Positions 42,765 through 57,481 of a stretch of DNA of 64,000 nucleotides are shown here, one piece after another. The notes under the pieces were generated by a model. It was not told where the DNA came from and ran no database searches. It worked only from the letters and a program-made list of their open reading frames with translations. The stretch comes from Branchiostoma floridae (Eukaryota > Chordata > Leptocardii > Amphioxiformes > Branchiostomatidae), in contig NC_049984.1 of NCBI RefSeq assembly GCF_000003815.2, positions 25,493,330 to 25,557,329 on the forward strand. Direction: 5' to 3'. Both the position numbers and the translations under genes were made by a program. Positions within the stretch are counted from its first letter, which is position 1; each line of letters starts with the position of its first letter.

Positions 42765-42911
42765 CAGGGGGCTAGTCCACTGGTAGTGGTGCGTGGTAAA
42801 CTTCCATACTCTTAACCGAATGCTGAGTGCTAAGCAGAGAAAGCAGCATGTACCATTTAAAAGTGTTCTGTATGACCGGGATCGAATTTATGACCTACCG
42901 AATGCAAAGTG
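42765..42911 (+). repeat. SINE-like fragment abutting the Polinton
   Basis: A tRNA-like start GGGGGCTAGTCCACTGGTAG and a box-B-like GGGATCGAATTT are visible. The Polinton inserted immediately after it. Confidence 0.45.
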
Positions 42912-42917
42912 AACACT
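42912..42917. repeat. Target-site duplication, left (AACACT)
   Basis: AACACT directly precedes the element terminus AGTAGT and is repeated exactly at 57476-57481. A 6-bp duplication is the Polinton/Maverick hallmark. Confidence 0.95.
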
Positions 42918-43101
42918 AGTAGTAATAAGGGTGAACCAGACGAATTCATGCAAATGAGATGCAAATGTATTCATGAGATGCAAATGTATTCATGAGATGC
43001 AAATGTATTCATGAGATGCAAATGTATTTATGAGATGCAAATGTATTCATGAGATGCAAATTTATTCATGAGATACAAATTTATTCATGATATGCAAATT
43101 T
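42918..43101 (+). repeat. Polinton terminal inverted repeat, left
   Basis: 184 bp identical to the reverse complement of 57292-57475. It starts AGTAGTAATAAGGGTGAACC and runs into the 19-bp octamer repeats. Confidence 0.95.
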
Positions 43102-43362
43102 ATTCATGATATGCAAATTTATTCATGAGATTCAAATTTATTCATGAGATACAAATTTATTTATGATATGCAAATGTATTCATGATATGCAAATGTATTC
43201 ATGAGATACAAATTTATTTATGACATGCAGATTTTATTTATGAGATACAAATTTTATTGATGAGATGCAAATTTTATTGATGAGATGTAAATTTATTGAT
43301 GAGATACAAATTTATTTATGAGATACAAATGTATTCATGAGATACAAATGTATTTATGAGAT
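42948..43362 (+). repeat. 19-bp tandem array with ATGCAAAT octamers
   Basis: About 22 units of GAGATGCAAATGTATTCAT and variants (GATACAAAT, GATATGCAAAT). About a dozen units hold the perfect POU/Oct octamer ATGCAAAT. The right terminus keeps only the outer units. Position inside and next to the terminal repeat suggests an origin or regulatory role; that is an inference. Confidence 0.9.
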
Positions 43363-43365
43363 GCT

Positions 43366-43520
43366 GTCACGTGCTAACTCTATAGCCTATTGGTTATGTT
43401 TGTTAAGTAGGTCACGTGCGTCATAACTCTTTACGTGATTGGATATGTTTATAAAGTAGGTCACGTGCCTCACGGAGATTGGATGATCCTTTATGGGTGG
43501 AGTCAGAAAATAGTATAAAT
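43366..43520 (+). promoter_or_regulatory. Promoter of PC4-like gene: three E-boxes, CCAAT boxes, TATA
   Basis: GTCACGTG occurs at 43366-43373, 43411-43418 and 43460-43467. ATTGG (inverse CCAAT) lies near 43389, 43437 and 43476. The middle part is a roughly 50-bp direct repeat containing both (ATTGG..ATGTTT...AAGTAGGTCACGTGC). TATAAAT at 43514-43520 sits 74 bp before the ATG. This whole promoter is deleted from the right arm. Confidence 0.75.
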
Positions 43521-43593
43521 GACGATGAAACTGTAGAGGAAACCATCGCCTTCTTGCGGTAACAATCTGGTATTGAAGACTGACAGCGACGAA

Positions 43594-44730
43594 ATGGCAT
43601 CTCAGCAGCAGCCCAAACGGAAGTCGGTGGGGAAGAAAGCTGGTTCCAACGTGAGGAGAAAGCTGAAGATGGGAGAGCAACCGAAACAACAAGTCTGCAT
43701 GGTGGAGGGGCAGCAGCAGCAGCAGAAGAAGAAGCAGAAGCAGGAGCCATGTCTAAACGACACGTTAGACATCGACGACTTGTTGACGATGATGGAGTCG
43801 AGTGTACAGAATCAGCCACCACCAGTTGAAAGTGCTCATTCGTCAACCTTGCCGAGCACAGTGAGCAACGTAGGCATGTACGGAGTAGAGCCGATCGCCG
43901 TACCAGTCACAGGTGTCGGTTCGTTCGGGCGTAACCCGAATCCTCAGCCCAGCAGCAGCAGCAGCAGTGGCGGTGGCGGTGGCAGCCACGCAGTCAACAG
44001 TATCGGTACGTCACGAAATCCTCCACTGTCCTATGATACACCGTGGCTAACCAGTGTGGTTAACCATGGCGGTACAAACAGCGTTAGTGCACCAGAACCG
44101 ATCGCCATACCATCGACCGTCAGCAGCGTCGGTGCCTTTGGGGTAGAGCCGATACCACAACCCAAAACCGTCAACGGTGGATTCTACACGGCACAGTCAC
44201 CGAACTGTGAGGAAGTGAGGCTGCCCATACACGACAATGTCTTCATTTCGTGTACAGTATTCAACAGTCGCCCTCTGATATCAGTTCGTCAGTTCTACAC
44301 CACGAAGGATGATCCTACTACCCTAAAGCCAGGGAAAAGAGGCCTGAGTATGACACCAGACCAGTGGAACAAACTGAAGGAATCACCGATCTACGGTGCC
44401 ATAATTGACTGCACCTTTCCATCACTGCCTCAAGCAGCAACCCAGAAACCTCGGATGTTCCCTCTGGGGAGTCTGCGGTACGCAGTCGTGGAAAATGCCA
44501 ACGGCAAACCGTCTGTGGGTCTGTACCAGTATTCCTCCGGAGGAGGAGGAGGTGGCTACAACAACAACAACAGCACCAACCTGTACCGTACTGAGAAGGG
44601 CATCACCCTATCACTACAGCAGTGGGAGGCGCTGGAGGCTAGGAAGTCAACCGTAGATTGGATCATGGGGGCTGTGGCAAACGGGAAATCTCCACTGGCC
44701 TGGGAAGTAATTGAAGGAATACCAGTGTAG
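43594..44730 (+). CDS. PC4-like ssDNA-binding protein with two PC4 domains (left copy)
   Basis: 378 aa from the ATG at 43594 (GACGAAATGG). An upstream TTG in frame is not a start. The N-terminal third is Lys/Gln-rich and low-complexity. Three short repeats (STVSNVGMYGVEPIAVP, GVGSFGRNPNPQP, STVSSVGAFGVEPIPQP) follow. The C-terminal part has a PC4/p15 domain at about residues 215-268 (PLISVRQFYTT, LKPGKRGLSMTPDQWNKL) and a second, interrupted by Gly/Asn runs, at about 289-350 (LYRTEKGITLSLQQWEAL). PC4 folds bind single-stranded DNA and melt promoters. In a protein-primed replicon a role in coating displaced strands or in transcription is plausible but inferred. It is the first gene inside the left terminus. 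The right copy lacks the first ~200 residues. Confidence 0.8.
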   Translation: MASQQQPKRKSVGKKAGSNVRRKLKMGEQPKQQVCMVEGQQQQQKKKQKQEPCLNDTLDIDDLLTMMESSVQNQPPPVESAHSSTLPSTVSNVGMYGVEPIAVPVTGVGSFGRNPNPQPSSSSSSGGGGGSHAVNSIGTSRNPPLSYDTPWLTSVVNHGGTNSVSAPEPIAIPSTVSSVGAFGVEPIPQPKTVNGGFYTAQSPNCEEVRLPIHDNVFISCTVFNSRPLISVRQFYTTKDDPTTLKPGKRGLSMTPDQWNKLKESPIYGAIIDCTFPSLPQAATQKPRMFPLGSLRYAVVENANGKPSVGLYQYSSGGGGGGYNNNNSTNLYRTEKGITLSLQQWEALEARKSTVDWIMGAVANGKSPLAWEVIEGIPV

Positions 44731-44929
44731 GTAAACCTGTCTCAAAGTAGATGTTACCTGTGACATAAACACAGGAGGTGATGTCATCAATAAAGTTGCC
44801 TGTGATATGTACACAGGAGAGAAAGGGATTGAAAATGTGTCTGTATCAGTCTTTAGAATGATGAGGATGAGGATGAGGATGAATGGGTACAATGACTTTG
44901 ACGAATGATTAGTATAATGTATAAATGAG

Positions 44930-44937
44930 TATAAAAG
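44930..44937 (+). promoter_or_regulatory. TATA box of Cys-rich gene (left)
   Basis: TATAAAAG 40 bp before the ATG at 44977. Mirror copy at 56547-56554. Confidence 0.7.
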
Positions 44938-44976
44938 AGTGTGTTGGTAACGGATAGCTAAGTTAGTTTGATAACC

Positions 44977-45282
44977 ATGGCGAGTAAGAAGGTCGTGGAG
45001 TCTTGCTCTTGCGTAGTAAGGTATTGTAACAGGTGCATCACACAATGCCGAGTGCTGTGTCCTTTACACATTGAAAAATGTGAACGCTGTACGCTATGTC
45101 TAAAACCTGACTACCTTTGTGCTGCAAATGGAGAGCAGTGTCTTTGGTGTAGACGGCGACTACCTAGTTGGTTTGTTCACTGCCTTTGTCAGAAATGTTA
45201 TGAGATGAGCGCTGACGTCATCAAGAGACTCGAACGTTCGCGTATAAAAGGCACCACTACACCTCGCGAATCGACAGTTTGA
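44977..45282 (+). CDS. Cys-rich zinc-binding-like protein (left copy)
   Basis: 101 aa from an ATG in good context (ACCATGG); the upstream TTG is not a start. About 15 cysteines occur in CxC, CxxC and CxxxC spacing (CSCVVRYCNRC, CERCTLCLKP, CLWCRRRLP, CLCQKC), followed by a basic tail. No family was recognised. The pairs suggest two or three zinc sites, such as a RING-like or zinc-ribbon fold. It lies between the PC4-like gene and the integrase under its own TATA box, a position that fits an early regulatory protein; that is an inference. Confidence 0.7.
   Translation: MASKKVVESCSCVVRYCNRCITQCRVLCPLHIEKCERCTLCLKPDYLCAANGEQCLWCRRRLPSWFVHCLCQKCYEMSADVIKRLERSRIKGTTTPRESTV
45243..45250 (+). promoter_or_regulatory. 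TATA box of integrase transcript (left)
   Basis: TATAAAAG at the 3' end of the Cys-rich gene, about 180 bp before the integrase ATG. Mirror copy at 56234-56241. Confidence 0.65.
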
Positions 45283-45430
45283 AAGTGACACTGCTACGAG
45301 ACGCATTACTCATGGGGTGTCTGTCAAACGTCTATCCACTGAGGGAAGTCCTGTGCAGGGCAGTGGAACGAATTCACTGTGCCTGCATGTGTGTTGGGGG
45401 ACGACTCTTTGTCTTCTTTGAGGGACTGGG

Positions 45431-46585
45431 ATGGTTTCCACCAAGGGTAAAGAAAGGTTTAGCAAAACAAAAAGACGCAGCGACATCAACGACCGAAAAC
45501 CCATTGATAGCATCTTCCGTGACATCTACTATGATCCCAGGAATCCAGCAGGATTTGGAAGTGTTGACAAACTTCATCGAGCTGTGAAACGACACGGAAT
45601 CAAGAGACAACAAGTGAAGGACTGGCTGCATTCTCAAGACACCTACACTTTACATAAACCGATACGTCGACGGTTTAAGAGGAACCGTGTTCAAGTTCAA
45701 TCGATAGACGAACAATGGCAAGCCGACCTTGCAGATATGTCTTCACTGGCTAAGCATAACGATGGTTATCGTTACATTCTAACATGTATTGACGTGCTAT
45801 CAAAGTTTGCTTGGGCCGTCCCTCTCACGGACAAGAAAGGTGTCACATTGGTTGAAGCCTTTCGATTCATTTTGAAAGATGGCAGAAAACCGTGGCGATT
45901 GCAAACAGATCAAGGCACAGAATTTCTAAATCGACACTTCCAAACCCTCTTGAAAAACGAAGAAATTGAATTCTTTACAACGTTTAATGCCGAGACGAAA
46001 GCAAGTGTGGTAGAAAGATTCAATCGTACTCTGAAAACTCGAATGTGGAAATTTTTCACCGCAAACAACACATATCGATATATCGATGTGTTGGATGAAC
46101 TTTTGGAGGCCTACAATCACTCAACACACAGAAGTATCAAAAAGGCACCTGTAGAGGTGACCAAAGAAAATCAACGACTCGTGTGGAGCACGTTGTATGG
46201 ACGTGAACTGTCGTGGAAGAAAACCAAGAAAAAACCATCGTTTAAATTTAAAGTAGGAGACGTAGTTCGAATTAGTAAAGCAAAGATGAAAATGGAAAAG
46301 GGATACACAGCCAATTGGACGACCGAGGTTTTCACCGTTTGTGCAAGAATACCACGTCAACCACCCGTCTATCGTGTAAAAGATTATGACGGAGAGGAAT
46401 TACAGGGGACGTTTTACGAAAAGGAGTTGCAGAGAGTTATGAAAAAAGACGACGACATCTATCAAGTAGAGGACATCCTGGACACGAGAAGGCGAGGCAA
46501 AAAGAAGGAGTTCCTTGTGAAATGGCAAGGATACCCAAACAAATTTAATAGCTGGGTGAGAGAAGAGGACATGGTGCCCATATGA
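45431..46585 (+). CDS. INT: Polinton integrase with C-terminal chromodomain (left copy)
   Basis: 384-aa rve-superfamily integrase. The catalytic DDE core shows D99 (WQADL), D160 (QTDQGTEF) and E195 (VVERFNRT), so D-x60-D and the standard D35E spacing. An SH3-like segment (FKVGDVVRISK, about 273-283) follows. A chromodomain lies at about 343-382 (YQVEDIL, FLVKWQGYP, NSWVREEDM). A short N-terminal helical region precedes the core, and the HHCC zinc finger is not obvious. The enzyme would insert linear element DNA with a 6-bp stagger, matching the AACACT duplication. The chromodomain may steer insertion to methylated-histone chromatin. All catalytic residues are intact and the right copy encodes the same protein. 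Confidence 0.96.
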   Translation: MVSTKGKERFSKTKRRSDINDRKPIDSIFRDIYYDPRNPAGFGSVDKLHRAVKRHGIKRQQVKDWLHSQDTYTLHKPIRRRFKRNRVQVQSIDEQWQADLADMSSLAKHNDGYRYILTCIDVLSKFAWAVPLTDKKGVTLVEAFRFILKDGRKPWRLQTDQGTEFLNRHFQTLLKNEEIEFFTTFNAETKASVVERFNRTLKTRMWKFFTANNTYRYIDVLDELLEAYNHSTHRSIKKAPVEVTKENQRLVWSTLYGRELSWKKTKKKPSFKFKVGDVVRISKAKMKMEKGYTANWTTEVFTVCARIPRQPPVYRVKDYDGEELQGTFYEKELQRVMKKDDDIYQVEDILDTRRRGKKKEFLVKWQGYPNKFNSWVREEDMVPI

Positions 46586-46637
46586 TAAATACAGGTGCAC
46601 ATCCTGCACATCTGGCATTGCATAGACGCATCTCGCC

Positions 46638-47441
46638 ATGGCCAATTCATTTTACATCACTCTCCCTAGCGATGGAAGTGTGGATGTCTTTTCGGATAAC
46701 ACGGTCACCAACTACAGGACTAAACTGGCTCATCCAATAGAACTTACAGGAGAGTGGGAGGTTGGTCTCGTGGAGATACAATATCCTCACAGTTGGCTGA
46801 ACGTTAGGGAAGACGAGAATACGTTAGTATATTACATGGTGGACGAAAAAGACAAAGGAGGTGGTCGGGAATACGAGATCGTCAAAATCTCTGTGGGGTA
46901 CTACAAGGATATTTTGCATCTCTTGAGAAGCCTGAACGAAGCCGCCTCCATACGTTACCCAGACCTCTTCAAGCAACACGACATGTTTGCTTATGACAGC
47001 ATCACGAAGAGAGTGACCATGGTCCTGCCTCCCATGGCGCAAAATTCGACGACAACAAAGACTTATCTGACGGGAGCATTGGCTGAAAAACTGGGATGGG
47101 GAGCGAAGGATGCCATATATGGTAGCTGGGTACAGGCGGAGCATCCACCCGACCCTAACCTGGGCTTTCATTCCTTGTACGTGTACGGGGATGTCGCACA
47201 GCATCGTCTTGTGGGTGGTCTGAAAGTTCCCCTGTTGAGAATTATCAAGATCGAGGGACAAGACGGAGACATCGTTGATCACCCTATCCTGACGCCGCAC
47301 TACATACCCCTGGCCAGGAAACGATTCGAAACGATTGAAATCGATATAAGGAATGACCTCGGCGAACCCGTGCCATTTGTGCAAGGACGAGTGATCGTAA
47401 CACTTCACTTCAGACAGAGGCGGTCTTCATACTTTTCCTAG
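46638..47441 (+). CDS. Putative penton-like minor capsid protein (left copy)
   Basis: 267 aa beginning MANSFYITLPSDGSVDVFSD and including ELTGEWEVGLVEIQYPHSW. This is a widespread protein of metazoan Polintons and adintoviruses, encoded next to the major capsid gene, and its length and beta-rich pattern suit a single-jelly-roll penton. The penton role rests on family recall and position, not on a motif proven here. The ATG lies in CGCCATGG context 52 bp after the integrase stop. The next gene follows after 7 bp, so a shared late transcript is likely. Confidence 0.75.
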   Translation: MANSFYITLPSDGSVDVFSDNTVTNYRTKLAHPIELTGEWEVGLVEIQYPHSWLNVREDENTLVYYMVDEKDKGGGREYEIVKISVGYYKDILHLLRSLNEAASIRYPDLFKQHDMFAYDSITKRVTMVLPPMAQNSTTTKTYLTGALAEKLGWGAKDAIYGSWVQAEHPPDPNLGFHSLYVYGDVAQHRLVGGLKVPLLRIIKIEGQDGDIVDHPILTPHYIPLARKRFETIEIDIRNDLGEPVPFVQGRVIVTLHFRQRRSSYFS

Positions 47442-47448
47442 ATACAAG

Positions 47449-47868
47449 ATGACTGGACAGAGAGGAGGACAGTTGCCGGTGTATTACGGACGGTCTATGC
47501 AGCGGGGGTACGGGTTGGGAGGAATTTTTCGCGGTTTACTTAGATCTGCCGTACCTCTACTTAAACGCGGGGCCAAAAGTGTGGGAAGACAGGCTCTACG
47601 AAGCGGTATAGATTTAGCTCAAGACGTCTTACATGGTCAAGGGGTAAAAAGCGCTGTCAAACGGAGAGCTGGTGAGTTTGGACAGCGTCTGATGTCTGGG
47701 CAGAAAAGAGCCAGAGTGCGTGCACCGCCTGCACCGGTGGGGCAGAACAATAGACGGGGAGCAGGTAGAGGAAAGAAGCCATTAAAACGTGGAACACGAC
47801 CTGGTGCAGTCAGTCGAAAGAGAGCCACTGCACGGCGCGGACGTACCTCTCCTGATATCTTCGGCTAG
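47449..47868 (+). CDS. Basic core/minor virion protein (left copy)
   Basis: 139 aa, very Arg/Lys/Gly-rich. The N-terminus has QLPVYYGRSMQRGYGLGGIF and an amphipathic stretch (RGLLRSAVPLLKRGAKSVG), and the C-terminal half is a basic tail (RRGAGRGKKPLKRG, KRATARRGR). The family is regularly found between penton and major capsid genes of metazoan Polintons. The amphipathic helix recalls adenovirus pVI-type membrane-active peptides and the tail a DNA-condensing core protein; either role is inferred. It ends 16 bp before the capsid ATG. Confidence 0.7.
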   Translation: MTGQRGGQLPVYYGRSMQRGYGLGGIFRGLLRSAVPLLKRGAKSVGRQALRSGIDLAQDVLHGQGVKSAVKRRAGEFGQRLMSGQKRARVRAPPAPVGQNNRRGAGRGKKPLKRGTRPGAVSRKRATARRGRTSPDIFG

Positions 47869-47884
47869 TCACGATATAAACGAC

Positions 47885-49216
47885 ATGACTCACATTCACC
47901 CCCTGTCGTGTTCCTGCACCAAATCAGAATTGGATCTGTTTGAAGTACCACCAACCCAGACGAGCATAGTGAGTGGTAGATGGGTAGAGTATCATCCGGT
48001 AGCCAGTCTTGCTGAGTCTTCTCCGATAGAATTTGACATTCCTGGAGCAGGGGATGAATTTACGGACCTTTCCCAGACGAAATTGTACGTGAAGGCCAAG
48101 ATCGTTCTCCCTAACGGTAATGACCTGCCGAACGACGCCAAGGTAGGCCCAGTAAACCTGTGGCTTCAATCGCTCTTCTCACAAGTCACGGTTACGGTCG
48201 CTGGCAAGGACATAACGGATTCCACTAATTGCTACCCATATCGTGCTTACCTGGAGACGCTGTTGAACTATGGTTCTGAAGCAAAGCAAACACAGCTGAC
48301 CTCTGAACTTTTCTATCAAGACACGCCTGGACGACTCCATTTGGTCGACCCGTACCCAACAGATGAAGGCGCAGTAGCAAACGAAGGATTGGTGAAGCGT
48401 GCCAACCTGACCCGTAACAGTCACGAAGTGGACCTCATAGGACCGCTACACGTCGATCTGTTCCATCAAGACCGCTATTTGCTCAGCAAAGTCGACGTTA
48501 AAATCAAGCTGCATCGATCGAAACATCAATTCTGTCTGATGTCACCAGGAGATCAGTTCAAAGTTGTCATCAGTGAGGCTGCCGTCTTTCTGAGAAAAGT
48601 CAACCTGTTACCCACCTATCAGCTGTCCATCGAAAGTCAACTCAACAAGCAGACGGTCAAGTATCCTCTTAGGAGGGTTCAATTAAAACCGTTCACAATT
48701 CCGCGTGGTAACCATTCAGTGTCGAGCGACAATCTGTTCCTGGGACAGGTCCCCAAACGCGTGGCGATTGCTCTGGTGGACAACGCAGCCTTCCAGGGGT
48801 CTTTTGGTACCAACCCCTTCAACTTCCAGCACTTTAACTTGAACTACATCAGTCTCTGTGTCAATGGGCAGGAGGTGCCTCACAAAGCGCTGTCACCCAA
48901 CTTTGCCGAGGGACAGTACATCAGATCCTACATGAACTTGTTCGGACCAACAGGCAAACAAGGACAAGACTGTGGGAACCAGATCGCGAGAAGTGACTAT
49001 AGCCAGGGCTTCACGGTGTGGTGCTATGACCTCAGTCCTGACCTCTGCGGCCTCGGTGGGGATCATTTTAACATAATCAGACAGGGAAACCTTCGCCTGG
49101 AGCTGCACTTTGCACAGGCTTTGGATCAGACAGTGGTGGCGGTGGTCCTCGCTGAATTCGACAATCTCCTGGAGATTGACAGGCAGAGAAACGTCAGCTT
49201 TGACTACAGCAACTAG
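47885..49216 (+). CDS. MCP: Double-jelly-roll major capsid protein, F54H12.2-like (left copy)
   Basis: 443 aa from the ATG at 47885. The frame is open further upstream from a GTG, but that overlaps the preceding gene. The N-terminus has SCTKSELDLFEVPPTQTSI and WVEYHPVASL, the signature of the F54H12.2-like family. This is the hexon-like major capsid of Polintons and adintoviruses, which builds trimers of double jelly rolls. No stops or frameshifts were seen. Residue 337 (in KALSP) is Ser here and Thr in the right copy, the only coding difference noticed between arms. The protease gene starts 2 bp after the stop. Confidence 0.93.
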   Translation: MTHIHPLSCSCTKSELDLFEVPPTQTSIVSGRWVEYHPVASLAESSPIEFDIPGAGDEFTDLSQTKLYVKAKIVLPNGNDLPNDAKVGPVNLWLQSLFSQVTVTVAGKDITDSTNCYPYRAYLETLLNYGSEAKQTQLTSELFYQDTPGRLHLVDPYPTDEGAVANEGLVKRANLTRNSHEVDLIGPLHVDLFHQDRYLLSKVDVKIKLHRSKHQFCLMSPGDQFKVVISEAAVFLRKVNLLPTYQLSIESQLNKQTVKYPLRRVQLKPFTIPRGNHSVSSDNLFLGQVPKRVAIALVDNAAFQGSFGTNPFNFQHFNLNYISLCVNGQEVPHKALSPNFAEGQYIRSYMNLFGPTGKQGQDCGNQIARSDYSQGFTVWCYDLSPDLCGLGGDHFNIIRQGNLRLELHFAQALDQTVVAVVLAEFDNLLEIDRQRNVSFDYSN

Positions 49217-49218
49217 AG

Positions 49219-49755
49219 ATGGACACCAAGCAGATCTACGCCGTCTTACGGAGCGACAAGAACACAGCACCTCACCTCCGTGGAGTCTTTGCTTCAGATC
49301 GGCTTCCGAGGCGTGTACCGGTCTACCCAAGCGCTTACGTCGTGAATACGGACCCTAGTAATAAACCCGGCCAGCATTGGCTGGCCATCTATTTCGACGG
49401 GGAAGGGCGAGGCGAATTCTTTGACTCTTATGGACGTTCACCAAGTGTGTATCCTTCCCCTATACTAAGGTTTTTGCGCAGAAATACACGCCTGCCATGG
49501 ATTCACAACGAGCGCCAGATACAGGCTAGACTGTCGACAACTTGTGGTCATCATTGTCTTTTCTATCTCTTACACAGATGTCGAAATATTCCAATGAGTA
49601 ACATAATCGACATGTTTAGCAGTAACTTAGACCTGAACGATGTATCCGTAGCACAGTTTATAGAGCATCATTTTGATATAGATGTTCCTGTGGTCGACAT
49701 TGATCTAGTCATGCGACAGATAGCTAGAACCTTAGAAGACTTTGATCGAACTTGA
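49219..49755 (+). CDS. PRO: Adenain-like maturation cysteine protease (left copy)
   Basis: 178 aa, close to adenain in length. The expected catalytic set is visible: His53 (GQHWLAIYFD), acidic Asp69 (GEFFDSYG), Gln102 for the oxyanion hole and nucleophile Cys109 (STTCGHHC), with the Gln-Cys spacing of 7 seen in adenoviral proteases. It would cleave capsid and core precursors during virion maturation. It follows the capsid gene with a 2-bp gap. An AATAAA lies at 49839-49844. Confidence 0.93.
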   Translation: MDTKQIYAVLRSDKNTAPHLRGVFASDRLPRRVPVYPSAYVVNTDPSNKPGQHWLAIYFDGEGRGEFFDSYGRSPSVYPSPILRFLRRNTRLPWIHNERQIQARLSTTCGHHCLFYLLHRCRNIPMSNIIDMFSSNLDLNDVSVAQFIEHHFDIDVPVVDIDLVMRQIARTLEDFDRT

Positions 49756-49838
49756 GATGGATGTTTACGACTAACTTATGCATGGTTAATCATATAACTT
49801 TAGAACGATTGTAGTATTAACTTAAGAAAGTTGTGACG

Positions 49839-49844
49839 AATAAA
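49839..49844 (+). terminator. Poly(A) signal of left late transcript
   Basis: AATAAA 84 bp after the protease stop. Mirror signal for the right arm at 51640-51645. Confidence 0.7.
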
Positions 49845-49882
49845 TCTTATGAAAAATGTATAATGGTCATGGACTCTTATTC

Positions 49883-49884
<2 letters not shown>

Positions 49885-49939
<55 letters not shown>

Positions 49940-49945
49940 ATACAC
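49885..49945. repeat. (CA)n microsatellite
   Basis: About 24 CA units and a CATACA tail, just inside the left boundary of the unique centre. Confidence 0.95.
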
Positions 49946-50018
49946 AAGGAAAAAATAATAGAAAGGAAAACAGAAACCATATGTAAATCTCTACAACCGT
50001 GTCCGAATCACGGCGAAC

Positions 50019-50024
50019 TTTATT
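50019..50024 (-). terminator. Poly(A) signal of central minus-strand genes
   Basis: TTTATT on +, AATAAA on -, 17 bp after the stop of the 50041-50748 gene. Together with 49839-49844 it makes a normal convergent gene end, so this left border looks ancestral. Confidence 0.65.
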
Positions 50025-50040
50025 TATTTGTTAAAAGCTA

Positions 50041-50748
50041 TTACGACCACGACATTTCAGAGAAGCTCCGTTTGGCAGACGAAGTAGTGCTCGAACGCCC
50101 AACTTTCTGCTTCTTCCCATGGAGTCTTTGAGCGACAACACGACGTCGTCTGGGTTGAGGTGTTGGGATGACGTCTTCGTACTCTTCGTCAGCAGAAAGA
50201 TCCTCACCACGGGCAGCGCGACTCTTGTGACGTTGGATCACGGACAGCCGGGTCGGGTGCCTGATAGCGGCTTCCGGCGCATTGATGCGTGCCAGTCCCC
50301 TGGCAAAAGATTGCCAGCCGGTGGGATTGAACCCTTGCCTTCTTTGTATAGTGTCTCTAATCAAGTCGGACACATTTGAGCCTGGGACTACCTGTTTGTT
50401 GTAGAGTAACTGTCCCTGATCATTATATCCAATGATGTCACCACCTTTGTGTTTGATGACGTTGAGCATCTGTCGTGCGCGAGCTTTCATGGTCTTGGGG
50501 AAGGCTTCCAGTATGCTCTGATCTTCTTTACCACTGGATGCGAGGGTACTGGGAGATTTTTCATCCTTATTGGTGTCCGTAGTAACTGTGTTAGTGGCAG
50601 AAGTAGGTGACGCCGAGGACAACACCCTGACCGTGACTGGCTCTGTGCGACGCTTATCTCTGTACGTCAAATAACGCTGTAAGAGTTGTTGGTACAAGGT
50701 CGCTTTCTCATCATCTGGGAGATCGGGTCGTTCCATCACCGACTTCAT
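50041..50748 (-). CDS. Conserved Polinton-linked protein of unknown function
   Basis: 235 aa from the ATG at 50748. The frame stays open upstream to about 50800, so a longer or spliced N-terminus is possible. The centre has GYNDQGQLLYNKQVVPGSNV followed by DLIRDTIQRRQGFNPTGWQ, a block I recall from a widespread metazoan Polinton family. Both the middle and the tail are rich in basic and Ser/Thr residues (PRRRRVVAQRLHGKK), so nuclear or DNA-bound location is plausible. The function is not known. It is present once only, in the unique centre, and converges on the left arm's protease gene. Confidence 0.65.
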   Translation of the reverse strand: MKSVMERPDLPDDEKATLYQQLLQRYLTYRDKRRTEPVTVRVLSSASPTSATNTVTTDTNKDEKSPSTLASSGKEDQSILEAFPKTMKARARQMLNVIKHKGGDIIGYNDQGQLLYNKQVVPGSNVSDLIRDTIQRRQGFNPTGWQSFARGLARINAPEAAIRHPTRLSVIQRHKSRAARGEDLSADEEYEDVIPTPQPRRRRVVAQRLHGKKQKVGRSSTTSSAKRSFSEMSWS

Positions 50749-50880
50749 CTCCTCGTCCAAGGTAACGGCGGTCTTGACCAGGGGAGACGTCTGTTCTTGT
50801 TGTTAAGCCTGAATCGTTGATAGTAATTCTTGTGGCACGAGTGCCATCTTTCTGCTGTGTTCCATGACGACAGAGCTGCG

Positions 50881-51216
50881 TTACTTCCGTCCACCTCCAA
50901 ATAAGGAACTAATTGCAGAAATAATAGGACTGAGTAGAAGAGACAGGAACCCACCCTTCTGGATCAACGTCTGTCTTTTCTTGGTCAGGGGAACCTTCTT
51001 ATCGCCAAGCTGGCGCAGAGTAGCTTTGTGCCGAGCCAGGCCTTTCTTCTGGGTCGGTGTGAGACGAACGTTGCCCTTCAAGACGTTGTGTGTACAGTCA
51101 CAAATCGATTTCAAGAGATCGTTAGGGGCAGACGATAGAATGGCCTTTCGCAATTTGGGGTTGGCCTTGCTCAACACCCTGAGACAGTCAGCGTTGCGGT
51201 GTAACCTCTTCGACAT
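50881..51216 (-). CDS. Small basic protein with hydrophobic Gly-rich C-terminus (Polinton family)
   Basis: 111 aa from the ATG at 51216; the frame runs further upstream to a GTG that overlaps the ATPase end. It is basic throughout (RLHRNADCLRVLSKANPKLR, KKRQTLIQKGGF) and ends in a hydrophobic segment LLLSPIISAISSLFGG. Such proteins are common in Polintons and adintoviruses and recall adenoviral small core or membrane-active peptides. The exact role is not shown. It is single-copy in the unique centre. Confidence 0.65.
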   Translation of the reverse strand: MSKRLHRNADCLRVLSKANPKLRKAILSSAPNDLLKSICDCTHNVLKGNVRLTPTQKKGLARHKATLRQLGDKKVPLTKKRQTLIQKGGFLSLLLSPIISAISSLFGGGRK

Positions 51217-51260
51217 CTTCGGCAAAATGAGACCTCGGTGTGAGTGATCGGAGGGTTTTA

Positions 51261-51612
51261 TCACTTTCTCAGGTACACATGGGGTTGTGACGTCAACATG
51301 TTGGTTCTCACGCGCAGGTCCTGGGGCGTTTCGGGATGGAGGTCAAGGAAGAGATGTCCATAGGTCGTCTTATTCACGGCGTCTTCGTAACATTCGCGAA
51401 GAAATTTACTATGCCCTGGGTACATTTGTCGAGCTAACGTGGTGATCATGCTTTGATCCCTTGGCGATTTGAACAGGACGATGTAACTGGAGTTCAAAGA
51501 AATGGTTCTTAGGCCTTGGAAGAACAAATTCTGAACGAGAAAAATCACTGACAAGTCACGATGACGGCTGGCTCGGGTAAACAATTTCGTAACTCGTTGA
51601 TCCGTGTCCTTG
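51261..51612 (-). pseudogene. ATPase: Packaging ATPase (FtsK/HerA type), C-terminal fragment
   Basis: The frame is open from the rearrangement border at 51612 to the stop at 51261, about 116 codons with no ATG. SVIFLVQNLFFQGLRTISLN and FKSPRDQSMITTLARQMYP are the sensor/arginine-finger half of Polinton packaging ATPases, the motors that pump DNA into capsids. The Walker A and Walker B parts, which should lie just upstream, are replaced by the inverted arm beginning at 51613. The fragment cannot hydrolyse ATP on its own. It marks the only true breakpoint of the palindrome. Confidence 0.85.
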
Positions 51613-51639
51613 CATGACCATTATACATTTTTCATAAGA

Positions 51640-51645
51640 TTTATT
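51640..51645 (-). terminator. Poly(A) signal of right late transcript
   Basis: AATAAA on the minus strand, mirror of 49839-49844. Confidence 0.65.
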
Positions 51646-51728
51646 CGTCACAACTTTCTTAAGTTAATACTACAATCGTTCTAAAGTTATATGATTAACC
51701 ATGCATAAGTTAGTCGTAAACATCCATC

Positions 51729-52265
51729 TCAAGTTCGATCAAAGTCTTCTAAGGTTCTAGCTATCTGTCGCATGACTAGATCAATGTCGACCACAGGAAC
51801 ATCTATATCAAAATGATGCTCTATAAACTGTGCTACGGATACATCGTTCAGGTCTAAGTTACTGCTAAACATGTCGATTATGTTACTCATTGGAATATTT
51901 CGACATCTGTGTAAGAGATAGAAAAGACAATGATGACCACAAGTTGTCGACAGTCTAGCCTGTATCTGGCGCTCGTTGTGAATCCATGGCAGGCGTGTAT
52001 TTCTGCGCAAAAACCTTAGTATAGGGGAAGGATACACACTTGGTGAACGTCCATAAGAGTCAAAGAATTCGCCTCGCCCTTCCCCGTCGAAATAGATGGC
52101 CAGCCAATGCTGGCCGGGTTTATTACTAGGGTCCGTATTCACGACGTAAGCGCTTGGGTAGACCGGTACACGCCTCGGAAGCCGATCTGAAGCAAAGACT
52201 CCACGGAGGTGAGGTGCTGTGTTCTTGTCGCTCCGTAAGACGGCGTAGATCTGCTTGGTGTCCAT
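51729..52265 (-). CDS. PRO: Adenain-like protease (right copy)
   Basis: 178 aa, predicted protein identical to the left copy at 49219-49755, with His53, Asp69, Gln102 and Cys109 all kept. In this arm the gene runs toward the ATPase fragment in the same direction, an arrangement created by the fold-back rather than the ancestral convergent one. Its AATAAA lies before the breakpoint, so transcription can still end normally. Confidence 0.93.
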   Translation of the reverse strand: MDTKQIYAVLRSDKNTAPHLRGVFASDRLPRRVPVYPSAYVVNTDPSNKPGQHWLAIYFDGEGRGEFFDSYGRSPSVYPSPILRFLRRNTRLPWIHNERQIQARLSTTCGHHCLFYLLHRCRNIPMSNIIDMFSSNLDLNDVSVAQFIEHHFDIDVPVVDIDLVMRQIARTLEDFDRT

Positions 52266-52267
52266 CT

Positions 52268-53599
52268 CTAGTTGCTGTAGTCAAAGCTGACGTTTCTCTG
52301 CCTGTCAATCTCCAGGAGATTGTCGAATTCAGCGAGGACCACCGCCACCACTGTCTGATCCAAAGCCTGTGCAAAGTGCAGCTCCAGGCGAAGGTTTCCC
52401 TGTCTGATTATGTTAAAATGATCCCCACCGAGGCCGCAGAGGTCAGGACTGAGGTCATAGCACCACACCGTGAAGCCCTGGCTATAGTCACTTCTCGCGA
52501 TCTGGTTCCCACAGTCTTGTCCTTGTTTGCCTGTTGGTCCGAACAAGTTCATGTAGGATCTGATGTACTGTCCCTCGGCAAAGTTGGGTGTCAGCGCTTT
52601 GTGAGGCACCTCCTGCCCATTGACACAGAGACTGATGTAGTTCAAGTTAAAGTGCTGGAAGTTGAAGGGGTTGGTACCAAAAGACCCCTGGAAGGCTGCG
52701 TTGTCCACCAGAGCAATCGCCACGCGTTTGGGGACCTGTCCCAGGAACAGATTGTCGCTCGACACTGAATGGTTACCACGCGGAATTGTGAACGGTTTTA
52801 ATTGAACCCTCCTAAGAGGATACTTGACCGTCTGCTTGTTGAGTTGACTTTCGATGGACAGCTGATAGGTGGGTAACAGGTTGACTTTTCTCAGAAAGAC
52901 GGCAGCCTCACTGATGACAACTTTGAACTGATCTCCTGGTGACATCAGACAGAATTGATGTTTCGATCGATGCAGCTTGATTTTAACGTCGACTTTGCTG
53001 AGCAAATAGCGGTCTTGATGGAACAGATCGACGTGTAGCGGTCCTATGAGGTCCACTTCGTGACTGTTACGGGTCAGGTTGGCACGCTTCACCAATCCTT
53101 CGTTTGCTACTGCGCCTTCATCTGTTGGGTACGGGTCGACCAAATGGAGTCGTCCAGGCGTGTCTTGATAGAAAAGTTCAGAGGTCAGCTGTGTTTGCTT
53201 TGCTTCAGAACCATAGTTCAACAGCGTCTCCAGGTAAGCACGATATGGGTAGCAATTAGTGGAATCCGTTATGTCCTTGCCAGCGACCGTAACCGTGACT
53301 TGTGAGAAGAGCGATTGAAGCCACAGGTTTACTGGGCCTACCTTGGCGTCGTTCGGCAGGTCATTACCGTTAGGGAGAACGATCTTGGCCTTCACGTACA
53401 ATTTCGTCTGGGAAAGGTCCGTAAATTCATCCCCTGCTCCAGGAATGTCAAATTCTATCGGAGAAGACTCAGCAAGACTGGCTACCGGATGATACTCTAC
53501 CCATCTACCACTCACTATGCTCGTCTGGGTTGGTGGTACTTCAAACAGATCCAATTCTGATTTGGTGCAGGAACACGACAGGGGGTGAATGTGAGTCAT
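52268..53599 (-). CDS. MCP: Major capsid protein, F54H12.2-like (right copy)
   Basis: 443 aa from the ATG at 53599, identical to the left copy except Thr instead of Ser in KAL(S/T)P. It is the double-jelly-roll capsid subunit. Retention of an intact second copy points to either very recent duplication or ongoing conversion between arms. Confidence 0.93.
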   Translation of the reverse strand: MTHIHPLSCSCTKSELDLFEVPPTQTSIVSGRWVEYHPVASLAESSPIEFDIPGAGDEFTDLSQTKLYVKAKIVLPNGNDLPNDAKVGPVNLWLQSLFSQVTVTVAGKDITDSTNCYPYRAYLETLLNYGSEAKQTQLTSELFYQDTPGRLHLVDPYPTDEGAVANEGLVKRANLTRNSHEVDLIGPLHVDLFHQDRYLLSKVDVKIKLHRSKHQFCLMSPGDQFKVVISEAAVFLRKVNLLPTYQLSIESQLNKQTVKYPLRRVQLKPFTIPRGNHSVSSDNLFLGQVPKRVAIALVDNAAFQGSFGTNPFNFQHFNLNYISLCVNGQEVPHKALTPNFAEGQYIRSYMNLFGPTGKQGQDCGNQIARSDYSQGFTVWCYDLSPDLCGLGGDHFNIIRQGNLRLELHFAQALDQTVVAVVLAEFDNLLEIDRQRNVSFDYSN

Positions 53600-53615
53600 G
53601 TCGTTTATATCGTGA

Positions 53616-54035
53616 CTAGCCGAAGATATCAGGAGAGGTACGTCCGCGCCGTGCAGTGGCTCTCTTTCGACTGACTGCACCAGGTCGTGTTCCACGTTTT
53701 AATGGCTTCTTTCCTCTACCTGCTCCCCGTCTATTGTTCTGCCCCACCGGTGCAGGCGGTGCACGCACTCTGGCTCTTTTCTGCCCAGACATCAGACGCT
53801 GTCCAAACTCACCAGCTCTCCGTTTGACAGCGCTTTTTACCCCTTGACCATGTAAGACGTCTTGAGCTAAATCTATACCGCTTCGTAGAGCCTGTCTTCC
53901 CACACTTTTGGCCCCGCGTTTAAGTAGAGGTACGGCAGATCTAAGTAAACCGCGAAAAATTCCTCCCAACCCGTACCCCCGCTGCATAGACCGTCCGTAA
54001 TACACCGGCAACTGTCCTCCTCTCTGTCCAGTCAT
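53616..54035 (-). CDS. Basic core/minor virion protein (right copy)
   Basis: 139 aa, identical to 47449-47868: an amphipathic N-terminal part and an Arg/Lys/Gly-rich tail. The same tight spacing to the capsid and penton genes is kept. Confidence 0.7.
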   Translation of the reverse strand: MTGQRGGQLPVYYGRSMQRGYGLGGIFRGLLRSAVPLLKRGAKSVGRQALRSGIDLAQDVLHGQGVKSAVKRRAGEFGQRLMSGQKRARVRAPPAPVGQNNRRGAGRGKKPLKRGTRPGAVSRKRATARRGRTSPDIFG

Positions 54036-54042
54036 CTTGTAT

Positions 54043-54846
54043 CTAGGAAAAGTATGAAGACCGCCTCTGTCTGAAGTGAAGTGTTACGATCACTCGTCCT
54101 TGCACAAATGGCACGGGTTCGCCGAGGTCATTCCTTATATCGATTTCAATCGTTTCGAATCGTTTCCTGGCCAGGGGTATGTAGTGCGGCGTCAGGATAG
54201 GGTGATCAACGATGTCTCCGTCTTGTCCCTCGATCTTGATAATTCTCAACAGGGGAACTTTCAGACCACCCACAAGACGATGCTGTGCGACATCCCCGTA
54301 CACGTACAAGGAATGAAAGCCCAGGTTAGGGTCGGGTGGATGCTCCGCCTGTACCCAGCTACCATATATGGCATCCTTCGCTCCCCATCCCAGTTTTTCA
54401 GCCAATGCTCCCGTCAGATAAGTCTTTGTTGTCGTCGAATTTTGCGCCATGGGAGGCAGGACCATGGTCACTCTCTTCGTGATGCTGTCATAAGCAAACA
54501 TGTCGTGTTGCTTGAAGAGGTCTGGGTAACGTATGGAGGCGGCTTCGTTCAGGCTTCTCAAGAGATGCAAAATATCCTTGTAGTACCCCACAGAGATTTT
54601 GACGATCTCGTATTCCCGACCACCTCCTTTGTCTTTTTCGTCCACCATGTAATATACTAACGTATTCTCGTCTTCCCTAACGTTCAGCCAACTGTGAGGA
54701 TATTGTATCTCCACGAGACCAACCTCCCACTCTCCTGTAAGTTCTATTGGATGAGCCAGTTTAGTCCTGTAGTTGGTGACCGTGTTATCCGAAAAGACAT
54801 CCACACTTCCATCGCTAGGGAGAGTGATGTAAAATGAATTGGCCAT
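54043..54846 (-). CDS. Putative penton-like minor capsid protein (right copy)
   Basis: 267 aa, identical to 46638-47441. See that entry for motif and limits; the penton role is inferred from family position. Confidence 0.75.
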   Translation of the reverse strand: MANSFYITLPSDGSVDVFSDNTVTNYRTKLAHPIELTGEWEVGLVEIQYPHSWLNVREDENTLVYYMVDEKDKGGGREYEIVKISVGYYKDILHLLRSLNEAASIRYPDLFKQHDMFAYDSITKRVTMVLPPMAQNSTTTKTYLTGALAEKLGWGAKDAIYGSWVQAEHPPDPNLGFHSLYVYGDVAQHRLVGGLKVPLLRIIKIEGQDGDIVDHPILTPHYIPLARKRFETIEIDIRNDLGEPVPFVQGRVIVTLHFRQRRSSYFS

Positions 54847-54898
54847 GGCGAGATGCGTCTATGCAATGCCAGATGTGCAGGATGTGCACCTGTATTTA

Positions 54899-56053
54899 TC
54901 ATATGGGCACCATGTCCTCTTCTCTCACCCAGCTATTAAATTTGTTTGGGTATCCTTGCCATTTCACAAGGAACTCCTTCTTTTTGCCTCGCCTTCTCGT
55001 GTCCAGGATGTCCTCTACTTGATAGATGTCGTCGTCTTTTTTCATAACTCTCTGCAACTCCTTTTCGTAAAACGTCCCCTGTAATTCCTCTCCGTCATAA
55101 TCTTTTACACGATAGACGGGTGGTTGACGTGGTATTCTTGCACAAACGGTGAAAACCTCGGTCGTCCAATTGGCTGTGTATCCCTTTTCCATTTTCATCT
55201 TTGCTTTACTAATTCGAACTACGTCTCCTACTTTAAATTTAAACGATGGTTTTTTCTTGGTTTTCTTCCACGACAGTTCACGTCCATACAACGTGCTCCA
55301 CACGAGTCGTTGATTTTCTTTGGTCACCTCTACAGGTGCCTTTTTGATACTTCTGTGTGTTGAGTGATTGTAGGCCTCCAAAAGTTCATCCAACACATCG
55401 ATATATCGATATGTGTTGTTTGCGGTGAAAAATTTCCACATTCGAGTTTTCAGAGTACGATTGAATCTTTCTACCACACTTGCTTTCGTCTCGGCATTAA
55501 ACGTTGTAAAGAATTCAATTTCTTCGTTTTTCAAGAGGGTTTGGAAGTGTCGATTTAGAAATTCTGTGCCTTGATCTGTTTGCAATCGCCACGGTTTTCT
55601 GCCATCTTTCAAAATGAATCGAAAGGCTTCAACCAATGTGACACCTTTCTTGTCCGTGAGAGGGACGGCCCAAGCAAACTTTGATAGCACGTCAATACAT
55701 GTTAGAATGTAACGATAACCATCGTTATGCTTAGCCAGTGAAGACATATCTGCAAGGTCGGCTTGCCATTGTTCGTCTATCGATTGAACTTGAACACGGT
55801 TCCTCTTAAACCGTCGACGTATCGGTTTATGTAAAGTGTAGGTGTCTTGAGAATGCAGCCAGTCCTTCACTTGTTGTCTCTTGATTCCGTGTCGTTTCAC
55901 AGCTCGATGAAGTTTGTCAACACTTCCAAATCCTGCTGGATTCCTGGGATCATAGTAGATGTCACGGAAGATGCTATCAATGGGTTTTCGGTCGTTGATG
56001 TCGCTGCGTCTTTTTGTTTTGCTAAACCTTTCTTTACCCTTGGTGGAAACCAT
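54899..56053 (-). CDS. INT: Chromodomain integrase (right copy)
   Basis: 384 aa, identical to the left integrase: D99, D160, E195 and the C-terminal chromodomain are all present. Two intact integrase genes in one element is unusual, and either could act in trans on related elements. Confidence 0.96.
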   Translation of the reverse strand: MVSTKGKERFSKTKRRSDINDRKPIDSIFRDIYYDPRNPAGFGSVDKLHRAVKRHGIKRQQVKDWLHSQDTYTLHKPIRRRFKRNRVQVQSIDEQWQADLADMSSLAKHNDGYRYILTCIDVLSKFAWAVPLTDKKGVTLVEAFRFILKDGRKPWRLQTDQGTEFLNRHFQTLLKNEEIEFFTTFNAETKASVVERFNRTLKTRMWKFFTANNTYRYIDVLDELLEAYNHSTHRSIKKAPVEVTKENQRLVWSTLYGRELSWKKTKKKPSFKFKVGDVVRISKAKMKMEKGYTANWTTEVFTVCARIPRQPPVYRVKDYDGEELQGTFYEKELQRVMKKDDDIYQVEDILDTRRRGKKKEFLVKWQGYPNKFNSWVREEDMVPI

Positions 56054-56201
56054 CCCAGTCCCTCAAAGAAGACAAAGAGTCGTCCCCCAACACACATGCA
56101 GGCACAGTGAATTCGTTCCACTGCCCTGCACAGGACTTCCCTCAGTGGATAGACGTTTGACAGACACCCCATGAGTAATGCGTCTCGTAGCAGTGTCACT
56201 T

Positions 56202-56507
56202 TCAAACTGTCGATTCGCGAGGTGTAGTGGTGCCTTTTATACGCGAACGTTCGAGTCTCTTGATGACGTCAGCGCTCATCTCATAACATTTCTGACAAAG
56301 GCAGTGAACAAACCAACTAGGTAGTCGCCGTCTACACCAAAGACACTGCTCTCCATTTGCAGCACAAAGGTAGTCAGGTTTTAGACATAGCGTACAGCGT
56401 TCACATTTTTCAATGTGTAAAGGACACAGCACTCGGCATTGTGTGATGCACCTGTTACAATACCTTACTACGCAAGAGCAAGACTCCACGACCTTCTTAC
56501 TCGCCAT
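56202..56507 (-). CDS. Cys-rich zinc-binding-like protein (right copy)
   Basis: 101 aa, identical to 44977-45282 and preceded by its own TATAAAAG at 56547-56554 on the minus strand. Function unknown. Confidence 0.7.
   Translation of the reverse strand: MASKKVVESCSCVVRYCNRCITQCRVLCPLHIEKCERCTLCLKPDYLCAANGEQCLWCRRRLPSWFVHCLCQKCYEMSADVIKRLERSRIKGTTTPRESTV
56234..56241 (-). promoter_or_regulatory. TATA box of integrase transcript (right)
   Basis: TATAAAAG on the minus strand, mirror of 45243-45250. Confidence 0.6.
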
Positions 56508-56546
56508 GGTTATCAAACTAACTTAGCTATCCGTTACCAACACACT

Positions 56547-56554
56547 CTTTTATA
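56547..56554 (-). promoter_or_regulatory. TATA box of Cys-rich gene (right)
   Basis: TATAAAAG on the minus strand, mirror of 44930-44937. Confidence 0.65.
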
Positions 56555-56753
56555 CTCATTTATACATTATACTAATCATTCGTCAAAGTCATTGTACCCA
56601 TTCATCCTCATCCTCATCCTCATCATTCTAAAGACTGATACAGACACATTTTCAATCCCTTTCTCTCCTGTGTACATATCACAGGCAACTTTATTGATGA
56701 CATCACCTCCTGTGTTTATGTCACAGGTAACATCTACTTTGAGACAGGTTTAC

Positions 56754-57290
56754 CTACACTGGTATTCCTTCAATTACTTCCCAGGCCAGTGGAGATTTCC
56801 CGTTTGCCACAGCCCCCATGATCCAATCTACGGTTGACTTCCTAGCCTCCAGCGCCTCCCACTGCTGTAGTGATAGGGTGATGCCCTTCTCAGTACGGTA
56901 CAGGTTGGTGCTGTTGTTGTTGTTGTAGCCACCTCCTCCTCCTCCGGAGGAATACTGGTACAGACCCACAGACGGTTTGCCGTTGGCATTTTCCACGACT
57001 GCGTACCGCAGACTCCCCAGAGGGAACATCCGAGGTTTCTGGGTTGCTGCTTGAGGCAGTGATGGAAAGGTGCAGTCAATTATGGCACCGTAGATCGGTG
57101 ATTCCTTCAGTTTGTTCCACTGGTCTGGTGTCATACTCAGGCCTCTTTTCCCTGGCTTTAGGGTAGTAGGATCATCCTTCGTGGTGTAGAACTGACGAAC
57201 TGATATCAGAGGGCGACTGTTGAATACTGTACACGAAATGAAGACATTGTCGTGTATGGGCAGCCTCACTTCCTCACAGTTCGGTGACAT
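56754..57290 (-). CDS. PC4-like protein, N-terminally deleted (right copy)
   Basis: 178 codons. The frame is identical to the left protein from SPNCEEV onward, so both PC4 domains are kept. The Lys/Gln-rich and repeat region (about 200 residues) and the E-box/CCAAT/TATA promoter are gone. The ATG at 57290 is created at the junction with the terminal 19-bp repeats (CATG of a repeat unit fused to TCACCG). It may be a functional minimal ssDNA-binding protein if transcribed from the terminal repeat, or simply a truncated copy. Confidence 0.75.
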   Translation of the reverse strand: MSPNCEEVRLPIHDNVFISCTVFNSRPLISVRQFYTTKDDPTTLKPGKRGLSMTPDQWNKLKESPIYGAIIDCTFPSLPQAATQKPRMFPLGSLRYAVVENANGKPSVGLYQYSSGGGGGGYNNNNSTNLYRTEKGITLSLQQWEALEARKSTVDWIMGAVANGKSPLAWEVIEGIPV

Positions 57291-57291
57291 G

Positions 57292-57475
57292 AAATTTGCA
57301 TATCATGAATAAATTTGTATCTCATGAATAAATTTGCATCTCATGAATACATTTGCATCTCATAAATACATTTGCATCTCATGAATACATTTGCATCTCA
57401 TGAATACATTTGCATCTCATGAATACATTTGCATCTCATTTGCATGAATTCGTCTGGTTCACCCTTATTACTACT
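57292..57475 (-). repeat. Polinton terminal inverted repeat, right
   Basis: Perfect inverse of 42918-43101, ending ...CCCTTATTACTACT. It carries the outer octamer units only. Confidence 0.95.
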
Positions 57476-57481
57476 AACACT
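57476..57481. repeat. Target-site duplication, right (AACACT)
   Basis: Exact repeat of 42912-42917. Confidence 0.95.

Follow-up and report, generated by a model that had tools for sequence, protein, structure and literature searches.

Can a Polinton carry its virion half twice, as a mirror image, and how would such a form come about? This question is raised by a 64,000-bp stretch of the Branchiostoma floridae genome (C6:25493330-25557329), referred to here as the window, which holds a complete Polinton-type insertion of 14,558 bp at positions 42918-57475. The evidence supports reading it as a palindromic derivative of a Polinton, complete and integrated, with its virion module doubled and inverted and with no PolB match among the 10 of its frames scanned with Pfam. 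It is a long-standing question whether the Polintons of animals are viruses in their behaviour, replicating from the termini as free viral DNA. If strands switch in such replication, integrated palindromes that bear the same end twice are the scar to be expected, and target-site duplications (TSDs) around them point to insertion by an integrase.

Structure and gene content of the element

The insertion is flanked by a perfect duplication of AACACT, has AGTAGT/ACTACT termini and bears identical 184-bp terminal inverted repeats (TIRs), all as stated in the original prediction (Table 1). The further claim that 5,676 bp are present twice in inverted orientation, around a centre of 1,741 bp that is single copy within the element, was reproduced with two refinements. 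The arms are identical at 5,675 of 5,676 positions, the sole mismatch being at 48893, where the left arm has T and the right arm A, and the palindrome is asymmetric by 1,094 bp found on the left side only. This left-only segment contains the remainder of the terminal array, a TATA-like box (recognised by eye) and the 5' portion of the gene for a PC4-domain protein, so that the right copy of this gene is 5'-truncated. On the right side the array meets the arm via three extra bases (CAT), which give the truncated PC4-domain open reading frame (ORF) an in-frame ATG. The pattern across this outer junction occurs once genome-wide.

Both arms hold intact frames for cysteine-rich, integrase, penton-like, core-like, capsid-like and protease proteins. 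The predicted gene pairs therefore stand as doubled open frames, and the integrase and protease are borne out by homology, the protease also giving a Pfam match to Peptidase_C5 (E 9.1e-4) that falls below the cut-off, at 19.4 against 21.3 bits. The names penton, core and capsid are our assumption from gene position and general knowledge, and neither family searches nor fold models confirmed them; the models of the capsid-like and penton-like proteins (pLDDT, the predicted local distance difference test score, of 35 and 41) were too poor for use. Scans of viral contigs with the capsid, the integrase and the ATPase fragment found no relative.

The predicted absence of PolB agrees with the Pfam scan. 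The packaging ATPase fragment has no Pfam match; the whole ATPase is not in the element, and what remains is the part after the motif that we take to be Walker B (the name Walker A, used below, is assigned in the same way). Lacking PolB and with its ATPase cut, the element is a defective derivative and not an autonomous member of the Polintons/Mavericks.

Parent-like copies and the derived inner junction

The host assembly searched comprises 513,431,437 bases in 431 contigs. It contains 22 matches to the capsid-like protein, and the window alone has two full-length ones that are close together and inverted. A PolB-bearing parent, which had been proposed as something to look for, has a likeness in a sister copy on C7, with one arm visible, PolB present and the left part missing at a run of 316 N. 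It is 99.7-99.9% identical to the window element where aligned, outside a CA repeat; this repeat is 30 bp shorter in C7, and one alignment that counts it gives 98%. Where the window element has its inner breakpoint, the C7 copy continues without interruption through the remaining ATPase-like gene and on to PolB (PF03175, E 1.2e-48). Its ATPase-like gene is broken, since the Walker B and Walker A stretches lie in different frames.

All 14 further copies tested, a set without those on C14 (whose own fold-back precedes 51612), at C7:19.1 Mb and on C19, also run past 51612 towards the ATPase, with 268-277 of 298 bases identical to C7. In none of these 14, nor in C7, does an inverted arm follow 51612, so the search for other copies with the same breakpoint came back empty within this set. 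The arm followed by the centre on one strand is seen at 13 other loci. As this order is common and the other copies run through 51612, the left junction has the usual arrangement and the right one is derived.

Single bases were compared with seven other loci (eight sequences, C14 being read twice). At 49229 both window arms have A and the seven loci G. At 48893 all seven have A, and the T of the left arm is therefore private. Judged by arm identity, the fold-back would be recent, unless gene conversion keeps the arms alike.

Two left-type ends

Left-type sequence, identical over 184 bp, stands at both ends of the window element. With left-type ends on both sides, the whole right half up to and including its terminus looks copied from the left half, less 1,094 bp. 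The right end of the C7 copy has 36 bp and 3-4 array units in common with the window's termini and then enters a different array, and the right terminus on C11 is of the same type (92% over 978 bp). In both C7 and C11, ~95 bp of the right end are close to the left terminus; beyond this the resemblance is 78-90% at best (78-85% for C7), between loosely alike AT-rich repeats.

A left-type terminus (99.5% over 184 bp) also lies on contig C395, where it is flanked by GCCGTG, the duplication of the C7 insertion. By the shared 6-bp TSD and the terminus, C395 probably carries the missing left end of the C7 insertion. The 5.2-kb flank on C395 has no match in the C7 stretches fetched around the insertion, and its best other matches (~80% identical) are at C7:17.97-18.03 Mb and on C13.

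Further mirror-image elements

A second large palindrome lies at C14:20813632-20830277 (16,646 bp, including two N runs, of 1,346 and 6,865). It belongs to an older subfamily, its capsid-like protein being 93% identical and carrying one stop, and it has its own TSD, GCCGCA. Its fold-back junction is in the ATPase region, ~75 bp from that of the window when the two are aligned; the landing site is a separate one, and the loop measures ~265 bp. The first and second pass through the C14 centre overlap by 330 aligned bases with four differences, three of them clustered. The low end equals 708 bp of the high end inverted, with two mismatches, which puts left-end sequence on both sides of this element too. 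Normal copies on C15, C4, C9 and C17 (16.4-18.2 kb, summed by hand; matching TSDs in three of the four) have right ends that match the C14 left end over the first 75-360 bp only. The 708 bp in C14 reach into a Bcl-2-like gene and, exceeding 75-360 bp, go beyond what normal ends share.

Smaller palindromes were obtained from a search with the older left end for inverted pairs, in which the best 40 of 109 candidates were scored. Six inverted-pair elements of 2.4-8.1 kb were read (C5a, C9, C1, C9b, C15b and C3b), and these match the older-subfamily DNA around the Bcl-2-like gene at both ends. Arm identity is 98.4% in C5a, 99.3% in C9, 93-96% in C1, C9b and C15b, and 81% in C3b; C9, C9b and C3b have a common central stretch of ~0.9-1.1 kb. 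Two further elements, C18 (3,244 bp, with arms of ~1.2 kb that are 100% alike) and C5b (1,344 bp), matched the window's terminus, and in C18 a block taken from the window's left-only segment also stands at each end.

Among the ten palindromic elements (window, C14 and the eight small ones) the TSD agrees at 6/6 positions in eight, 5/6 in C9 and 2/6 in C3b; for the small elements this means six exact of eight, one 5/6 and one 2/6. Agreement of at least 5/6 is thus seen in 9/10 elements against 0/90 swapped pairs, or in 9/11 if the candidate C7:19095504-19103143 is counted. This candidate was rejected as a palindrome, with its two left ends 85% alike and its flanks without a common TSD. At C11:78.8-100 kb, inverted left ends ~87-89% alike lie ~20 kb apart. 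C11:8400478-8407234, a mosaic with an inverted join and a single terminus, was set aside; it is a young-subfamily copy with one right terminus and an inverted inner block, missing window positions 45001-45866, and in it a PolB-side block is joined inverted to the left part with a 5-bp overlap.

In the older subfamily the gene adjoining the left terminus is of the Bcl-2 family (PF00452, E 4.5e-12; C14 stretch L018:3403-3912), and the young subfamily has its PC4-domain (transcription coactivator) gene in that place. A Polinton with an apoptosis-regulator-like gene would be of interest in its own right.

Insertion site

The Polinton sits in a dispersed repeat of ~230 bp at 42691-42917, tRNA-like as judged by eye, and most of the flank matches listed (best 40 of 3802 candidates) fall on this repeat. 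In an empty-site test with eight repeat copies, all eight matched the left flank up to a position no more than 2 bp from the insertion. The continuation in seven of the eight had no direct match to the window's right flank, and by eye the match may resume ~18 bp further on. As the repeat copies do not match the right flank directly, contiguity of the flanks rests on the TSD.

Origin of the palindrome

The window element is an integrase-type insertion with left-type sequence at both ends, the normal order of arm and centre, and a derived inner-right breakpoint. With slightly better than even confidence, we lean towards its being an integrated snap-back Polinton genome, of the defective-interfering type, that arose in terminus-primed replication. 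PolB primed at a terminus would copy the element starting at the left end, and the nascent strand would quit its template inside the ATPase gene at 51612, fold back 1,741 nt upstream (49871) and copy its own left half to the left terminus, with loss of 1,094 bp beside the terminal array during copy-back. Copying of the hairpin would give a linear duplex that has a left end on either side, and this would then integrate. Protein priming, the hairpin and dependence on a helper are what we infer: with the integrase and structural-type genes kept and PolB and the whole ATPase gone, the element would depend on a related Polinton acting in trans for its replication and packaging. In support, the unique loop is contiguous with one arm and meets the fold-back breakpoint at the other, the same genome end and terminal repeat stand at both ends, and the palindrome shape recurs in C14 with an independent fold-back junction and its own TSD. 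From the other mirror-image elements it seems that forms of this kind have originated on more than one occasion, probably through copying errors in virus-like DNA replication.

Several points weigh against a snap-back origin. Terminal-protein priming and an extrachromosomal form are postulated, and a second event has to be assumed for the loss of 1,094 bp. With a single occurrence of the window's junction, there is no sign that the molecule predated its insertion. No microhomology was found at the inner junction (51612/51613), and this blunt join does not decide between mechanisms. The palindrome is known here from assembled sequence. In C14 the second arm lies mostly inside the 6,865 N and the second capsid gene is not seen. 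By the central stretch that C9, C9b and C3b have in common, some at least of the small palindromes belong to a single amplified family instead of being independent events, and C3b has no TSD (2 of 6). Moreover, C18 and C5b carry the array type of the C7 right end at both ends, so that array type marks left versus right only inside the young subfamily.

The same structure could be sought in host repair after insertion, which we regard as unlikely. A normal Polinton would have broken in its ATPase/PolB half, gap repair would have copied the left half inverted, and the product would have been rejoined at the right terminus through the ~95 bp shared with the left. Such repair keeps the TSD and requires host functions only, the ~95 bp common to the C7 right end and the left terminus are enough for the final annealing, the inner junction is blunt, and rejoining through homology between the termini would result in a very similar structure. 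Yet C9 and C9b, with their shared centre, sit at different flanks, so palindromes themselves can insert, and repair does not specifically predict that two large palindromes should have breaks ~75 bp from each other in one gene. Tail-to-tail joining before integration of two broken left halves, one reaching 51612 and the other 49871 and one of them already without the 1,094 bp, is to our mind just as improbable. Against it, the halves would have to be near-identical sister molecules, because the arms share the derived base at 49229 and differ at 1/5,676 positions; in its favour, joining accounts for the blunt junction without microhomology, for the centre as the overhang of the longer half, and for the outer asymmetry.

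A shade more doubtful again is an error of assembly or haplotype merging, in which near-identical arms were mis-joined or borrowed from another copy. According to the available part of its description, the B. floridae assembly was built from ~tenfold Sanger reads with ARACHNE and HaploMerger2 (PMC7269912). The Polinton family assembles poorly here, as seen in the N runs of C7 and C14 and in the C11 mosaic of near-identical pieces, and the empty-site test on the dispersed repeat did not show both flanks contiguous. Set against this, the two new junctions join without N and with little or no homology, which would presumably take a separate chimeric read for each; the outer flanks have a 6-bp TSD in common, the arms lack symmetry, and other palindromes with their own TSDs occur in the same assembly.

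If the snap-back origin is accepted, a wider proposal is that Polintons in this lineage regularly throw off palindromes with two same ends during extrachromosomal terminus-primed replication, and that these integrate in the germ line and act as satellites of the parent. This extension is tentative, possible rather than probable. The breakpoints may lie near the midpoint of the genome, where forks from both ends would meet: that of the window lies 8,695 bp in from the left end, for a parent estimated at 17.4 kb, and that of C14 at ~8.46 kb, normal copies measuring 16.4-18.2 kb (hand sums). If the arms were transcribed convergently, long hairpin RNA against the Polinton family could be a further product. 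If confirmed with reads, these elements would constitute a genomic record of Polinton replication errors and a natural class of satellite (defective) Polintons.

Features of the window and related loci

Elsewhere in the window, exons of an amine-oxidase-like host gene were recognised by eye at 17212-19305, and tandem arrays lie at 19986-20998 (204-bp units) and 29674-30174 (25-bp units).

Table 1. Coordinates of the palindromic element, its genes and the smaller palindromes (window positions unless a contig is named).
Feature	Position	Strand	Remark
TSD AACACT, left copy	42912..42917	.	sequence read
Left terminal repeat, 184 bp	42918..43101	+	begins AGTAGT; holds first left-type 19-mer array units
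Left-type AT-rich 19-bp tandem array	42954..43364	+	~21.5 copies
Left-only segment, 1,094 bp	43102..44195	+	
PC4-domain protein gene, complete	43594..44730	+	PF02229 E 3.2e-18
Left palindrome arm, 5,676 bp	44196..49871	+	
Cysteine-rich 101-aa protein, left copy	44977..45282	+	open frame; no Pfam match
Integrase with chromodomain, left copy	45431..46585	+	PF00665 E 8.9e-10, PF00385 E 7.8e-12
Penton-like protein, left copy	46638..47441	+	open frame; no Pfam match, best PHROG E 0.48
Basic core-like protein, left copy	47449..47868	+	open frame; no Pfam or PHROG match
Major-capsid-like protein, left copy	47885..49216	+	open frame; no Pfam, PHROG or PDB match; relatives in genome
Adenain-like cysteine protease, left copy	49219..49755	+	PDB S273R E 2.1e-8
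Unique centre, 1,741 bp	49872..51612	.	follows arm in same orientation, also in 13 other loci
ORF in centre	50041..50802	-	in-frame upstream stop makes it shorter than in C7
Small basic ORF	50881..51342	-	weak adenovirus pX match, E 0.21, below cut-off
Packaging-ATPase-like gene, 3' part	51261..51612	-	ends just past Walker B
Fold-back breakpoint, blunt	51612..51613	.	absent from C7 and 14/14 further copies tested
Right palindrome arm	51613..57288	-	inverted left-arm copy
Protease, right copy	51729..52265	-	
Major-capsid-like protein, right copy	52268..53599	-	
Core-like protein, right copy	53616..54035	-	
Penton-like protein, right copy	54043..54846	-	
Integrase, right copy	54899..56053	-	
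Cysteine-rich protein, right copy	56202..56507	-	
PC4-domain ORF, 5'-truncated	56754..57290	-	ATG created at outer junction
Outer junction, array-CAT-arm	57283..57293	-	
Right terminal repeat	57292..57475	-	identical to left-type terminus
TSD AACACT, right copy	57476..57481	.	sequence read
C1 palindrome	C1:26977618-26983732		
C3 palindrome C3b	C3:33305139-33313259		
C5 palindromes	C5a = C5:698456-700893; C5b = C5:17337318-17338661		
C9 palindromes	C9:15286031-15292177; C9:1402475-1406632		
C15 palindrome C15b	C15:10750802-10755941		
C18 palindrome	C18:1103887-1107130		

Comparison with known systems

With animal Polintons/Mavericks (adintovirus-like) the window element shares a 6-bp TSD, AGTAGT/ACTACT termini with TIRs, an rve integrase with chromodomain, an adenain-like protease and an ATPase remnant, and a near-identical copy with PolB is present in this genome. 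It differs from them in that PolB was not found, the ATPase is cut, the left half is doubled in inverted orientation and a left-type terminus stands at both ends. For vertebrate Mavericks, an (AGT)2//(ACT)2 end motif and a 6-bp TSD are given in the accessible text of one study (PMC8097293). The titles and abstract openings of the Polinton/Maverick papers listed, a scope outside which subscription papers and Repbase fall, contain no description of palindromic Polintons. Within that scope the claim that the element is undescribed holds, but it is not the sole palindrome, as C14 and the small elements demonstrate.

Adeno-associated virus (AAV) makes asymmetric snapback genomes with a loop, which replicate given Rep and helper functions, according to the sections available of PMC8235507. 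As in the window element, part of the genome and a terminal repeat are doubled back around a unique loop. AAV, as described there, uses a rolling hairpin and not terminal-protein priming, whereas the window holds a 14.6-kb double-stranded element integrated with a TSD.

Similarly, AT-rich packaging repeats adjoin the left end of adenovirus, whose incomplete particles are enriched in left-end DNA, as far as the portion available of PMC5033970 goes. The likeness lies in a linear, protein-primed genome with AT-rich repeats beside the left terminus and left ends favoured; adenovirus differs in having no integrase-made integration. By analogy only, the 19-mer array may have a role in packaging. Inverted left-end duplications occur in defective adenovirus genomes.

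Small fold-back or long-TIR elements are a class of non-autonomous DNA transposons with long inverted arms, a TSD and presumed mobilisation in trans, and the small palindromes described here fit this class. Unlike such transposons, the window element retains two sets of integrase and virion-type genes.

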